Positions 9,067 to 13,857 of a DNA stretch of 64,000 bases are shown here, one piece after another (within the stretch, counting starts at the first letter, position 1; each line of letters opens with the position of its first letter). A program made the position numbers and the translations under genes. The notes beneath the pieces were generated by a model. That model did not search any database and was not told the DNA's origin. It saw nothing but the letters and a program-made list of their open reading frames with translations. This DNA is from Winogradskyella sp. Its GTDB lineage: Bacteria; Bacteroidota; Bacteroidia; Flavobacteriales; Flavobacteriaceae. The DNA lies in assembly GCF_013213975.1 (NCBI RefSeq), contig NZ_JABSST010000003.1, positions 1-64,000 on the forward strand, written 5' to 3'.

Positions 9067-10392
9067 ATGAAAAAATTAGCATTACATTGGAAGATCATCA
9101 TCGGAATGGTATTAGGTATCATTTTTGGTTTTATAATGAATTCTTTCAACGGTCAACAATTTGTTACTGATTGGATAGCACCATTCGGTAAAATCTTTAT
9201 TAATCTTCTAAAGTTAATTGCAGTTCCCTTAATTCTTGCCTCGTTAATAAAAGGGATTTCAGACTTAAAGGACATCTCTAAAATTAGAGATATGGGTTTA
9301 AAAACTATTGCCATTTATATTGGAACTACTTTGGTGGCTATTGTTATTGGTTTATCGATTGTCAATTTCGTAAAACCTGGAACAGGGATGCCACAAGAGA
9401 CACTAAAAAAAATTAAGTTAAAGTATGAAAATGATGCTGGTGTAACTGATAAATTGGTTAAGGCGAGTGCACAACAAGATGCTGGACCTTTACAAGCGTT
9501 AGTTGATATTTTTCCAAGTAATATATTTCAATCTATGGCAGATGCCAAAATGCTGCAGGTGATCTTTTTTGCTCTTTTTGTTGGTATTTGTTTGCTTTTA
9601 ATTGGCGAAAAGAAGGCCAAGCCTATGGTAGATATTTTCGATGCTTTAAATGAGGTTGTGATGAAGATGGTAGATGTTATTATGCTCTTTGCACCTTATG
9701 CAGTATTTGCTTTAATGGCTAACGTTATTATTGCTTTTGATGATACTGAAATATTAGTAAAACTCTTGCAATATGCATTATGTGTTGTTGGTGGTTTAGT
9801 TCTAATGATTGGATTCTATCTGATTCTTATAAAGGTATTCACCAAAAAATCACCACTTTGGTTCTTGAGTAAAATAAGTCCTGCACAGCTATTAGCATTT
9901 TCAACAAGTAGTAGTGCTGCCACATTACCTGTAACCATGGAACGTGTTGAAGAGCATATTGGTGTTGATAAAGAAGTCTCAGGATTTGTTTTACCTGTAG
10001 GTGCTACAGTTAACATGGATGGCACAAGTCTTTATCAAGGGATTGCAGCTGTATTTATTATGCAGGTAATTTGGCCTGAAGGTTTAACCTTAACCAACCA
10101 ATTAGTTATTGTAGCTACGGCACTTTTAGCGTCTATTGGCAGTGCTGCAGTACCAAGTGCTGGTATGGTTATGTTGGTAATTGTACTCGAATCTATTGGG
10201 TTTCCCCCAGAATTATTGCCTATTGGTTTAGCTTTAATTTTCGCGGTAGATCGACCACTAGACATGTGTAGAACTGTAGTTAATGTTACGGGTGATGCTA
10301 CGGTTTCTATGATAGTAGCAAAATCATTAGGGAAGCTGCATGACAAACCCAAGGCAAAAAACTGGGATGATCATTTTCAGGAGGTGAAATAA
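9067..10392 (+). CDS. Dicarboxylate/amino acid:cation (Na+ or H+) symporter, DAACS family
   Basis: The protein has 441 residues with about eight hydrophobic segments and the diagnostic DAACS motifs: the serine-rich re-entrant loop STSSSAATLPVTMERVEE, the GFVLPVGATVNMDGTSLY segment, and the later ARG-like region FAVDRPLDMCRTVVNVTGD. Family members (GltP, GltT, DctA) import glutamate, aspartate or C4-dicarboxylates across the inner membrane with Na+ or protons. Serine/threonine or neutral amino-acid relatives also exist, so the substrate is left open. It lies between aroC and the ATP-grasp operon on the same strand, with short intergenic gaps. Confidence 0.93.
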   Translation: MKKLALHWKIIIGMVLGIIFGFIMNSFNGQQFVTDWIAPFGKIFINLLKLIAVPLILASLIKGISDLKDISKIRDMGLKTIAIYIGTTLVAIVIGLSIVNFVKPGTGMPQETLKKIKLKYENDAGVTDKLVKASAQQDAGPLQALVDIFPSNIFQSMADAKMLQVIFFALFVGICLLLIGEKKAKPMVDIFDALNEVVMKMVDVIMLFAPYAVFALMANVIIAFDDTEILVKLLQYALCVVGGLVLMIGFYLILIKVFTKKSPLWFLSKISPAQLLAFSTSSSAATLPVTMERVEEHIGVDKEVSGFVLPVGATVNMDGTSLYQGIAAVFIMQVIWPEGLTLTNQLVIVATALLASIGSAAVPSAGMVMLVIVLESIGFPPELLPIGLALIFAVDRPLDMCRTVVNVTGDATVSMIVAKSLGKLHDKPKAKNWDDHFQEVK

Positions 10393-10457: not shown

Positions 10458-11495
10458 ATGAATATTTGCTTTATAATGTATCCTTGGGAAAAGATAGACC
10501 CGGAAAATGATACCAGTTTAGCATTAATTAAAGAATGTGTAAAACGTGGTCATGGCGTTGCCATGTGTACACCTGCTAATCTTACCATACGAGATAGCGT
10601 TACTAATGCGTTTTGTACGGTTGTTGGACGTATGGATAAAGTTCCGTCGACACTCAAATCTTTCTACAATAAGGCAAAACTTAGAGAAGAAATGTTACCT
10701 CTTGCAGGTTTTGATGCCATATTTTTTAGAGCAAATCCACCGCTAGATCCAATAATGCTTAATTTTTTAGATTCTGTGAAGGACGATGTATTCATTGTAA
10801 ATTCATTGCAAGGCATGCGTGAAGCTAATAATAAGCTATATACAGCGGCTTTTGGTGATGCGCATAGTAATATTATTCCAAACACACACGTGTCAAAAAA
10901 TAAAAACTACTTAATCAAACAGATTAAAGAATCAAAAGCTGATAAAATGATATTAAAGCCATTGAATGGTTTTGGTGGTTCTGGTGTTATTCTTATCGAA
11001 AAGTCAGCTATGAACAATATTAACTCACTACTTGATTTTTATATTTCCACTGGAGATGGTGAGTCTAACTATGTCATTCTTCAAGATTATATAGAAGGAG
11101 CTGATCAAGGCGATGTTAGAATTCTGTTATTAAATGGTGAGCCTGTGGGTGCCATGAAACGTGTTCCTTGTTCTGATGACCACCGGTCTAATGTTTCTGC
11201 TGGAGGCAGCGTTCAAAGGCATTCACTAACCAAGGCAGAAAAGGCGTTGTGTAAGCAAATTGGACCAAAGCTAGTTAAAGACGGTTTGTATTTTGTAGGC
11301 ATTGATGTTATAGGGGGAAAGCTTGTTGAAGTTAATGTAATGTCACCAGGTGGTATTACTTATATCAACAAGGTTTATAAAAATAAACATAAAGTCGAAG
11401 AGAAGGTAATTGACTTTTTGGAGAGTAAGGTTTTGGATAAATTACAAGCCTTTGATAGACGTACAAGACTTCGTAAAGCTGTGGATGAGGCTTAA
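10458..11495 (+). CDS. GshB-like ATP-grasp ligase (annotatable as glutathione synthetase)
   Basis: This 345-residue protein has the prokaryotic glutathione-synthetase layout. An N-terminal pre-ATP-grasp domain (MNICFIMYPWEKIDPENDTS, FFRANPPLDPIMLNFLD) precedes an ATP-grasp fold with a glycine-rich loop (LKPLNGFGGSGVILIE), EGADQGDVRILLLNGEPVGA and the metal-binding VEVNVMSPGGIT. GshB joins gamma-glutamylcysteine and glycine. However, no gshA is visible here. The gene heads a tight operon with a TerB-like protein, an N-formylglutamate amidohydrolase-like protein and a DUF1704 protein. A role in a different peptide-bond-forming reaction is therefore as plausible as glutathione synthesis. The fold call is firm; the substrate is not. 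Confidence 0.9.
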   Translation: MNICFIMYPWEKIDPENDTSLALIKECVKRGHGVAMCTPANLTIRDSVTNAFCTVVGRMDKVPSTLKSFYNKAKLREEMLPLAGFDAIFFRANPPLDPIMLNFLDSVKDDVFIVNSLQGMREANNKLYTAAFGDAHSNIIPNTHVSKNKNYLIKQIKESKADKMILKPLNGFGGSGVILIEKSAMNNINSLLDFYISTGDGESNYVILQDYIEGADQGDVRILLLNGEPVGAMKRVPCSDDHRSNVSAGGSVQRHSLTKAEKALCKQIGPKLVKDGLYFVGIDVIGGKLVEVNVMSPGGITYINKVYKNKHKVEEKVIDFLESKVLDKLQAFDRRTRLRKAVDEA

Positions 11496-11531
11496 TCAAT
11501 ACTTTTTAAACAATCTCAGATTTATATTTAA

Positions 11532-11864
11532 ATGAAAATACCAGATTGGACAAGAGATGAGCTTGTTGCATACATATTATTGTTTGCTGCGCATTCTGAC
11601 TTTAAAGAAGATAATAACGAACGTAACGCCATAATATCTAATGTTGATATGCAGACGTTCCAAGATATTCATAGCGAATTTGATTGTGATAACGATTATC
11701 AAAGTATCAAGAAAATCATAATGAGTTTGGAGCAGCACAATTACGATAAAGATGATATTGATATGTTACTCTCTGATGTAAAAGTATTATTCTTTTCTGA
11801 TGGTGAATTCAACGTCTTAGAACAAAATATGATGCGTTTCTTAGAAAAACTTTTAAAGAATTAG
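11532..11864 (+). CDS. TerB-like small cytoplasmic protein
   Basis: This 110-residue soluble, acidic, helical protein has two TerB-like halves: an N-terminal helix followed by an acidic turn (LLFAAHSDFKEDNNERNAI) and a C-terminal equivalent (LFFSDGEFNVLEQNMMRFLEKLL). TerB-family domains often bind metal through such acidic turns. The assignment is by pattern only. It sits 36 bases after the ATP-grasp gene and two bases before the amidohydrolase gene, so it is almost certainly translated from the same mRNA. Its function in the cassette is unknown. Confidence 0.75.
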   Translation: MKIPDWTRDELVAYILLFAAHSDFKEDNNERNAIISNVDMQTFQDIHSEFDCDNDYQSIKKIIMSLEQHNYDKDDIDMLLSDVKVLFFSDGEFNVLEQNMMRFLEKLLKN

Positions 11865-11866
11865 CC

Positions 11867-12697
11867 ATGCAAAAATTGTCTTTACGTGCAATTATTTCTA
11901 AAATAAAATCTGAAGAGACATTTCATGCCGTGGTAGAGGATTATTCATTTACTATAAAGATTAATGAATATGTACCATATGTCTGCGGTGCTGTACATGA
12001 CGGACATCAATTTAGAAAAAGCCTTTGGGATAATTGTTTACACTCTGAATATGACCGTTGGTACGAAGAGGATCCTGAAACTAAAAATATGGTTATATCA
12101 CACCCTATTCTTATAGCAGGATGTGATTCTAGATTTGAATATGATCTTAATCGAGATCCAAAAAACGCTGTTTTTGATACAGCTTGGGGAAAACAACTCT
12201 GGAAAACCCCTTTAAAAGAAACCGAAAAGGTCAAAAGCTTAGAGAAACATGCAAATTTCTATAAAGTTGTTCATGCTTTAATTGAAACCATAGAGTCCAA
12301 GTTTGGAACTTGTATTGTTTATGATATGCATAGTTATAATTGGAAACGATGGGATAGGGAAGTGCCCTTATGGAACCTAGGAACCTCTAATATTGATAAT
12401 GACCGTTATGGTGATCTTGCAGAGACTTGGAGACAGGCTTTAGCAAGCATTATTTTACCTCACGACATAAAGCCAACAGCAAAGATTAACGACACCTTCC
12501 AAGGTAACGGATATTTCTTGAAATATATTACCAAAAACTTTAAGAATACCTTAGTTTTGGCAACTGAAATTGCTAAGGTGTATTGTGATGAATATGCTCA
12601 AGTTAACTATCCTGAAGTGGTAGCTTCAGTTGAGCGTCAATTGAGAAATTTAATTCCACAACATGCTAGCGAATTTTACCAAAGGTTTAAACCATAA
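11867..12697 (+). CDS. N-formylglutamate amidohydrolase family protein
   Basis: The 276-residue protein resembles the N-formylglutamate amidohydrolase (HutG) family, a zinc-hydrolase fold related to M14-like carboxypeptidases. Visible features are VCGAVHDGHQFR (first metal-ligand region), YEEDPETKNMV, CDSRFEYDLNRDP and VYDMHSYNW (second histidine region), as well as TFQGNGYFLKYIT. Classical HutG acts in histidine degradation, but no hut genes are present. The surrounding operon suggests hydrolysis of an amide or peptide related to the product of the upstream ligase. The stop codon overlaps the start of the next gene (TAATG), indicating translational coupling. Confidence 0.87.
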   Translation: MQKLSLRAIISKIKSEETFHAVVEDYSFTIKINEYVPYVCGAVHDGHQFRKSLWDNCLHSEYDRWYEEDPETKNMVISHPILIAGCDSRFEYDLNRDPKNAVFDTAWGKQLWKTPLKETEKVKSLEKHANFYKVVHALIETIESKFGTCIVYDMHSYNWKRWDREVPLWNLGTSNIDNDRYGDLAETWRQALASIILPHDIKPTAKINDTFQGNGYFLKYITKNFKNTLVLATEIAKVYCDEYAQVNYPEVVASVERQLRNLIPQHASEFYQRFKP

Positions 12698-13857
12698 TGT
12701 CCCAGATAAAGACCACAGAAGAATTTCAAGATTTATTTGATATTGATGCTAATCTTAATCGATTGGTTAAAAATATCGAACTTCTCAATTATATTAATCC
12801 ACAAAATATAGCAGCTGAAAAGAAAACGTTTTTTTCTTCTAAATACAATTATGAGCCTGTTTTTAAGTATCCAAAGATGCGGTTCAATGGCTATAAACTT
12901 CATCGCTTGTTCTTTTCGCAGCGTTTAGAGCGTATTGAAGATGTTGATATTAGACAACTTTATGAAGATATTATTTATGAATATTCTGGATTAATTGAGT
13001 GTATAGAAACAATTGGGCAAGGACGTAAATTTTATTTCAATAGCCTCAAAAGCTTTGGAACACCTACTGAAAAGGATATTGAAAATGCCAAATTTATTCT
13101 GCGATTTGATGATTCGGATTTTGATGAGAAAATGCTCCCTGTGTTTAATGTTAATGAGGCCAAAGATTATTTTGATGATTTCTCTAAACGTTACGACTTT
13201 AAATACAACATAAAGATTTCAAACAATCTTTCTGCTGCTGCAATGGTTCTTAACAATACGCAAACCTTGGTACTTCGAAAAAGTCATAAATACAGTTTGA
13301 GTCAATTAAAAGTTTTAACCAATCATGAAATAGGTGTACACATGGTCACAACGTTTAATGGCTTAGATCAGCCTTTAAAGGTGTTTTCAAATGGATTCCC
13401 TAATAATGTTGAAACTCAAGAAGGATTAGCTGTTTATTCAGAATATATGAGCGGGTGTTTGACTATTATGCGATTAAAAGAGCTCGCATTTCGTGTTATT
13501 GCAGTAGACAGCCTTAATAAAGGCTATTCGTTTTCAGACACATTTCATTTACTTCATAATCAACATAAATTAAATAGAGACAAGGCTTTTGCAATTACAC
13601 TTCGCGTTCATAGAGGTGGAGGATTTACAAAAGACCATTTATACTTACGTGGATTGCGCAATGTATATCAATATGCCAAGGCAAATAAAGATCTTTCAAT
13701 TCTTTTAATTGGGAAAGTAAGTCAAGAGTACATTCCTACCATGGAAAAATTGCTTAACTATGGTCTAGCCATAAAACCAAAGTATTATACAGATGCTTAT
13801 GTGTCTAACAATAATACTAACCCAAACTTAGATTTTATCCTTGGAGGCTTAAAGTAA
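12697..13857 (+). CDS. DUF1704 / QEGLA-motif metallopeptidase-like protein
   Basis: The 386-residue protein carries the motif that names the family (TQEGLAVYSEY) and the zinc-site-like NHEIGVHMVT about 30 residues earlier; together these form an HExxxH-plus-Glu arrangement. The bacterial family is often labelled 'flavohemoglobin expression-modulating QEGLA motif protein'; eukaryotic relatives are tubulin tyrosine carboxypeptidases (MATCAP). A C-terminal-residue-removing peptidase activity is therefore plausible by homology, which is knowledge of the family rather than something shown here. It is the last gene of the four-gene operon and overlaps the preceding stop codon by one base. Confidence 0.88.
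   Translation: MSQIKTTEEFQDLFDIDANLNRLVKNIELLNYINPQNIAAEKKTFFSSKYNYEPVFKYPKMRFNGYKLHRLFFSQRLERIEDVDIRQLYEDIIYEYSGLIECIETIGQGRKFYFNSLKSFGTPTEKDIENAKFILRFDDSDFDEKMLPVFNVNEAKDYFDDFSKRYDFKYNIKISNNLSAAAMVLNNTQTLVLRKSHKYSLSQLKVLTNHEIGVHMVTTFNGLDQPLKVFSNGFPNNVETQEGLAVYSEYMSGCLTIMRLKELAFRVIAVDSLNKGYSFSDTFHLLHNQHKLNRDKAFAITLRVHRGGGFTKDHLYLRGLRNVYQYAKANKDLSILLIGKVSQEYIPTMEKLLNYGLAIKPKYYTDAYVSNNNTNPNLDFILGGLK

Follow-up and report, generated by a model that had tools for sequence, protein, structure and literature searches.

A GshB-like ligase, an N-formylglutamate-amidohydrolase-fold hydrolase and a MATCAP metallopeptidase form a conserved three-gene set in Winogradskyella and other bacteria

We analyzed a window of 64,000 nucleotides from Winogradskyella sp. 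(assembly GCF_013213975.1, contig NZ_JABSST010000003.1, positions 1 to 64,000; this genome, G000 in our sample, is 97% complete), in which four intact open reading frames (ORFs) are packed on the plus strand at 10458-13857 (Table 1), where the first two junctions leave 36 and 2 bases and the last is a 1-base overlap in the sequence TAATG. An earlier note, made from the sequence of this DNA, had described the packing in the same way and had proposed a dedicated operon of four genes, coding for an ATP-grasp ligase, a TerB-like protein, a hydrolase resembling N-formylglutamate amidohydrolase (FGase) and a QEGLA peptidase of the MATCAP/DUF1704 family (PF08014). Our results support a dedicated set, as the ligase, the FGase-like hydrolase and the MATCAP peptidase are conserved together across two phyla, but the conserved unit has three genes and not four. 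We call these genes the trio and keep to the view that it is a variant on the established theme of ATP-grasp plus peptidase sets.

PF08014 is rare in the Bacteroidota, occurring in 16 of 248 genomes drawn evenly from the phylum, and the ligase is present in 15 of these 16 (15, 1, 2 and 230 genomes with both genes, MATCAP only, ligase only and neither; P = 5e-21, Fisher's exact test; 3e-16 by genus). In 14/14 genomes other than that of the window, the ligase and MATCAP genes are 36-2495 bp apart. This is the linkage across Bacteroidota that the earlier note had proposed to look for. Among 60 relatives, the ligase and PF08014 are found in the identical 24 genomes. In the loci of the 80 best named matches, which are the closest matches and hence biased toward Flavobacteriaceae, all three genes are present in every one of the 79 that are uncut by a contig end. 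Plasmid copies in Pararhizobium, Aminobacter and Sinorhizobium meliloti have the arrangement FGase-QEGLA-"glutathione synthase", and in Photobacterium sp. DA100 a fusion of the FGase-like protein and MATCAP (QEGLA) comes after the ligase; the two hydrolases are also fused in L043, L047 and L072. A second type of locus bears a longer MATCAP with its own ligase, and the N-terminal domain of this longer form is a degenerate FGase-like domain (95% in hhalign); at some of these loci (L048, L081 and L082) an AstE/AspA protein substitutes for the FGase. In L045, L073 and L074 the ordinary QEGLA protein has been non-orthologously replaced by a second-type QEGLA and a second ligase. A candidate ligase-peptidase fusion in L080 was rejected because it consists of two ORFs in different frames. 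The pairwise distances of the three proteins are correlated over 111 loci (r = 0.92-0.95), which fits joint inheritance and does not prove a shared function.

One explanation for such a pattern is coincidental synteny, in which the genes are kept together by descent without a common function, and it is true that the block in Flavobacteriaceae often occupies a single ancestral position, flanked by aroC/SDF and DCC1/mutS2. However, distant families carry this set elsewhere, as do proteobacterial plasmids, with changes in order, fusions and replacements, and its separated halves have been lost together. The 13 Winogradskyella genomes examined that lack the core genes form one clade (Shimodaira-Hasegawa-like approximate likelihood ratio test, SH-aLRT, 94), and their joint loss removed two blocks, the ligase on one side and FGase-QEGLA on the other, from around a retained pair of rhodanese and TerB-like genes. 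We regard coincidental synteny as extremely improbable.

The ligase carries the database label of a glutathione synthetase, and we consider it very unlikely that this is its function. The label has a basis in sequence. The protein matches the GSH-S_N and GSH-S_ATP domains (186 bits for the ATP-grasp part in Pfam) and E. coli GshB (PDB 1gsa, E = 3e-38), retains the ATP-grasp catalytic Lys/Glu/Asn and several of the basic substrate residues, passes the model NF009110 (PRK12458, 461.5 bits vs. a cut-off of 408), the title of which is glutathione synthetase, and narrowly passes the GshB equivalog NF003573 (PRK05246, 282.4 vs. 272). It fails, however, the GshB equivalog TIGR01380 (236.9 vs. 299.05), and the ligases of relatives in L043, L045, L048 and L172 fail NF003573. 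The tree places canonical GshB apart from the MATCAP-linked ligases (SH-aLRT 99), and the RKDPPFD, RGN and SPT motifs of canonical GshB correspond to RxNPP (in place of RKDPP), RSN and SPGG in the MATCAP-linked ligases, with RNNP or RNDP at the first of these sites in the second type. The phylum sample has two ligase hits without MATCAP (G134 and G251; loci L168 and L169); these were rejected as MATCAP-free PRK12458 ligases because their TIGR01380 scores of 407-408 make them canonical GshB, and one of them adjoins a GCS2 protein.

If the operon served the synthesis of glutathione or of another gamma-glutamyl thiol, with the hydrolases used for turnover, a glutamate-cysteine ligase would be expected in the genome as the source of gamma-Glu-Cys for the ligase. 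Neither PF04262 nor PF04107 was found in a genome-wide search of G000, nor PF04262 in the 60 relatives, and the ligase is instead linked to two hydrolases. The earlier note had reported no gshA nearby and had named a gshA elsewhere with GshB activity shown for the ligase, together with a lack of conserved linkage, as evidence against its reading; no gshA was found and the linkage is conserved. A gene resembling mercaptopyruvate sulfurtransferase (a rhodanese) lies within the operon of many relatives, as might suit thiol metabolism, but this rhodanese persists where the ligase has been lost. The trio is also found on pSymB in both S. meliloti 1021 and 2011, with intact ORFs in 1021, and a gshB (SMc00419) mutant of strain 2011 is without glutathione by high-performance liquid chromatography (PMC7063052). 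Because this mutant lacks glutathione despite the trio, the PRK12458 gene is not a stand-in for GshB in S. meliloti. Taken together, a glutathione pathway is a very improbable account of the operon.

The hydrolase encoded by the second core gene passes the FGase model PF05013 (49.9 bits vs. a cut-off of 28.9) but is far under the HutG deformylase equivalog TIGR02017 (14.6 vs. 278.75), and, unlike HutG, it is linked to a ligase and MATCAP. No hut genes turned up in the flanking ORFs that were read (6-19 kb), and no hut search was made beyond these. Histidine degradation does not explain the grouping, nor does glutathione synthesis, as the earlier note had argued for both labels. A PDB sequence search with this protein gave no match; its predicted structure (mean predicted local distance difference test score, pLDDT, 95) matches FGase (2q7s, template modeling score 0.71) and then, weakly, M14 carboxypeptidases. 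The FGase fold (2q7s, 2odf) is what it has in common with HutG/FGase and AstE/AspA. The residues H44, R89, D93, N95, R96, D153, H155 and E234 are invariant in the alignment, and we take the M14-like DxNR motif to be the carboxylate site. In Vibrio sp. HDW18 a stand-alone FGase-MATCAP fusion (L171, 5122-7113) has lost the histidine of the DxH motif from its FGase-like part (DMYAYN).

The third core protein is a member of the MATCAP family (329.8 bits vs. a cut-off of 27 for PF08014), and the NHEIGVH and QEGLA motifs read by the earlier note as those of a metallopeptidase are present, the metal motif having the HExxxH form as in MATCAP. H210, E211, H215 and Q241-E242-G243 are invariant in the peptidase alignment (A2). 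The protein is under the cut-off of TIGR02421, a QEGLA hypothetical equivalog (314.6 vs. 338.65), which is passed by the Vibrio, Photobacterium and Pararhizobium proteins. It belongs to the same Pfam family as the tubulin carboxypeptidases MATCAP/TMCP, and a profile of the family finds human KIAA0895L (7z5g) at E = 1.5e-16, with HEIGxH, EEGLA and KDxxYLxG aligned. Unlike these enzymes, it is bacterial, shares its operon with a ligase and another hydrolase, and is remote in sequence identity; carboxypeptidase activity on C-terminal Tyr or Glu is established for the human MATCAP enzymes only (PMC10499314). The catalytic motifs of both hydrolases are intact, and both are predicted to be active. 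In S. meliloti ABS7 the QEGLA gene is frameshifted in the record (L186, 2099-4000), and the copy in strain 1021 is intact.

For the trio we infer the reactions, the substrate and the physiological role as follows. The account we favor, tentatively and at somewhat less than even probability, is a cycle that attaches an amino acid at the C-terminal carboxylate of a peptide-like molecule and later takes it off. This cycle would be cytosolic, since none of the three core proteins has an N-terminus that resembles a signal peptide when judged by reading. In the first step the PRK12458 ligase would use ATP to activate the C-terminal carboxylate of the acceptor and couple an amino acid to it, in parallel to the joining of glycine to gamma-Glu-Cys by GshB but with a different acceptor. 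In the second step the FGase-fold hydrolase and MATCAP would each cleave amide bonds at carboxylate-bearing ends, by which the conjugate would be trimmed or recycled. The cycle would probably be drawn on in low salinity, with the rhodanese and TerB-like genes as neighbors outside it. The proposal of the earlier note that the system adds and removes an amino acid or a small amide fits the evidence and is kept here as a proposal. FGase and AstE belong to families of small-molecule enzymes, and the ligase is of the GshB type, its score being below the cut-off of the RimK-type model TIGR00768 (92.8 vs. 143.4). For these reasons a small peptide or an acyl-amino acid is somewhat likelier as the substrate than a protein tail.

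In the alternative, the target is a specific bacterial protein; the ligase would extend its C-terminus or acidic tail with amino acids, which the two hydrolases would remove, on the model of RimK/RimB acting on ribosomal protein S6 or of the tubulin tail enzymes. MATCAP/TMCP enzymes do act on protein tails (PMC10499314), and the Rim and Rlo systems couple an ATP-grasp protein with a peptidase, as the trio does (PMC12239564). Nevertheless, the trio differs from RimK/RimB and RloC/RloA in that its ligase is GshB-type with an N-terminal domain and its hydrolases are metallohydrolases rather than an aspartic protease, and it has no transglutaminase-like membrane protein. In addition, relatives in the FGase and AstE families have small-molecule substrates, and no conserved fourth gene that could code for a candidate target protein was found at the loci. 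A protein tail is therefore unlikely as the target, with perhaps one chance in four. A special form of this idea is a tail code in bacteria equivalent to that of tubulin, with an ATP-grasp writer and two unrelated erasers (MATCAP and an M14-fold enzyme) that would act on the C-terminus of a bacterial protein; we regard it as improbable, and the parallel with the tubulin enzymes (ATP-grasp TTL/TTLL, MATCAP and M14 CCP) is one of fold resemblance and no evidence of function.

A lead to the physiological role comes from Photobacterium damselae, in which a gene annotated as GshB (RS17020) and a QEGLA gene (RS17025) are up 38.4-fold and 27.5-fold, respectively, at low salt (PMC10308900). The two locus tags are consecutive, and this pair is likely the same two-gene operon as that of Photobacterium sp. 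DA100. The Rlo system offers a parallel, as hypo-osmotic tolerance in Pseudomonas is under the control of the rlo genes, which code for an ATP-grasp protein and a peptidase, and the effect of losing the peptidases is rescued when the ATP-grasp gene is lost as well (PMC12239564). These observations suggest that the trio is possibly tied to life at low salt, a link that we infer for Winogradskyella.

Besides the narrow passing of NF003573, four points weigh against the reading of the trio as a dedicated cycle separate from glutathione. Winogradskyella lost the trio in one event, so that co-occurrence within the genus counts as one observation. MATCAP without a nearby ligase exists, in G243 and in Vibrio sp. 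HDW18. The identity of the operons in P. damselae and DA100 rests on locus-tag order and names, and the literature found gives no substrate, product or activity for any bacterial member. As an observation on the first of the two lone peptidases, the G243 gene (L068) codes for a solitary 424-amino-acid MATCAP, and the 12-kb region retrieved contains neither a ligase nor an FGase-like gene. In the literature searched for QEGLA, DUF1704 and the neighborhood, a description of the trio was not found, although the work of Iyer et al. 2009 (Mol BioSyst 5:1636) may cover it. That work reportedly predicted ATP-grasp amidoligase-peptidase neighborhoods, in which amide ligases are linked to unrelated peptidases.

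The 110-amino-acid product of the remaining gene is outside the conserved set. The earlier note had taken it for a TerB-like metal or regulatory partner of the enzymes, but neither the label nor the role is borne out. The protein has no match among Pfam and NCBIfam models, including no TerB family hit, no PDB chain at a meaningful E-value by profile, and no fold match below E 3; its model is all-helical (pLDDT 83). In favor of a four-gene operon, the gene is located inside the operon in Winogradskyella, and fusions join it to the FGase-like gene in L027 and, in several genera, to the rhodanese. Against it, no more than 28 of the 80 named trio loci have the gene, most other genera that carry the trio lack it, and in 13/13 Winogradskyella genomes without the core genes it is kept with the rhodanese beside the symporter gene SDF, the ligase, FGase-like and MATCAP genes being gone. 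A role for it as partner of the three enzymes was rejected on these grounds and has only a slim chance of being right.

Its companion appears to be the rhodanese, which lies between the ligase and the TerB-like gene in most Winogradskyella; the genome of the window has only a 44% paralogue of it, elsewhere. As a further part that would point to a thiol or persulfide product, the rhodanese was rejected because it persists where the trio is lost. The SDF transporter was likewise rejected, because genomes have it whether or not they carry the trio. The symporter at this site (also L027, L031, L045, L046 and L083) is nearly always SDF, in forms 49-71% identical to that of the window, as if relatives had been swapped in several times at one site. 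Lipoprotein-like or membrane ORFs are inserted among the operon genes in single strains (L028, 3317-4147 and 4524-5558; L044, 4694-5311; L038, 4395-5048), and a pair of secreted-looking proteins is found directly upstream of the ligase in Dokdonia-type genomes (L112, 2927-4978; L132, 331-2424). A promoter and terminator scan gave results near chance level.

Table 1. Positions in the window of the three core genes, the peptidase zinc site and the neighboring genes
Feature	Position	Strand	Details
GshB-like ATP-grasp ligase (PRK12458 subfamily), core gene 1	10458..11495	+	345 aa; PF02951/PF02955, NF009110, PDB 1gsa
All-helical protein called TerB-like, neighbor outside the conserved set	11532..11864	+	110 aa; without Pfam/NCBIfam match
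N-formylglutamate-amidohydrolase-fold (M14-like) hydrolase, core gene 2	11867..12697	+	276 aa; PF05013, fold match 2q7s
MATCAP/DUF1704 QEGLA metallopeptidase, core gene 3	12697..13857	+	386 aa; PF08014
HEIGVH zinc-site codons (HExxxH) of the QEGLA peptidase, residues 210-215	13324..13341	+	invariant H210, E211, H215
Na+:dicarboxylate symporter (SDF), 65 bases upstream of the ligase	9067..10392	+	PF00375

These results suggest another function for a gene that carries the label of glutathione synthetase in many genomes; one such gene, 38-fold up at low salt in P. damselae, has already been interpreted as glutathione metabolism in published work. Within the evidence examined, the trio is the first clear functional context for the bacterial MATCAP family, and S. 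meliloti 1021, which is genetically tractable, has an intact trio in which the question can be answered. If the parallel with the tubulin tail code were true, it would make the operon a possible source of eukaryotic tubulin-modifying chemistry.

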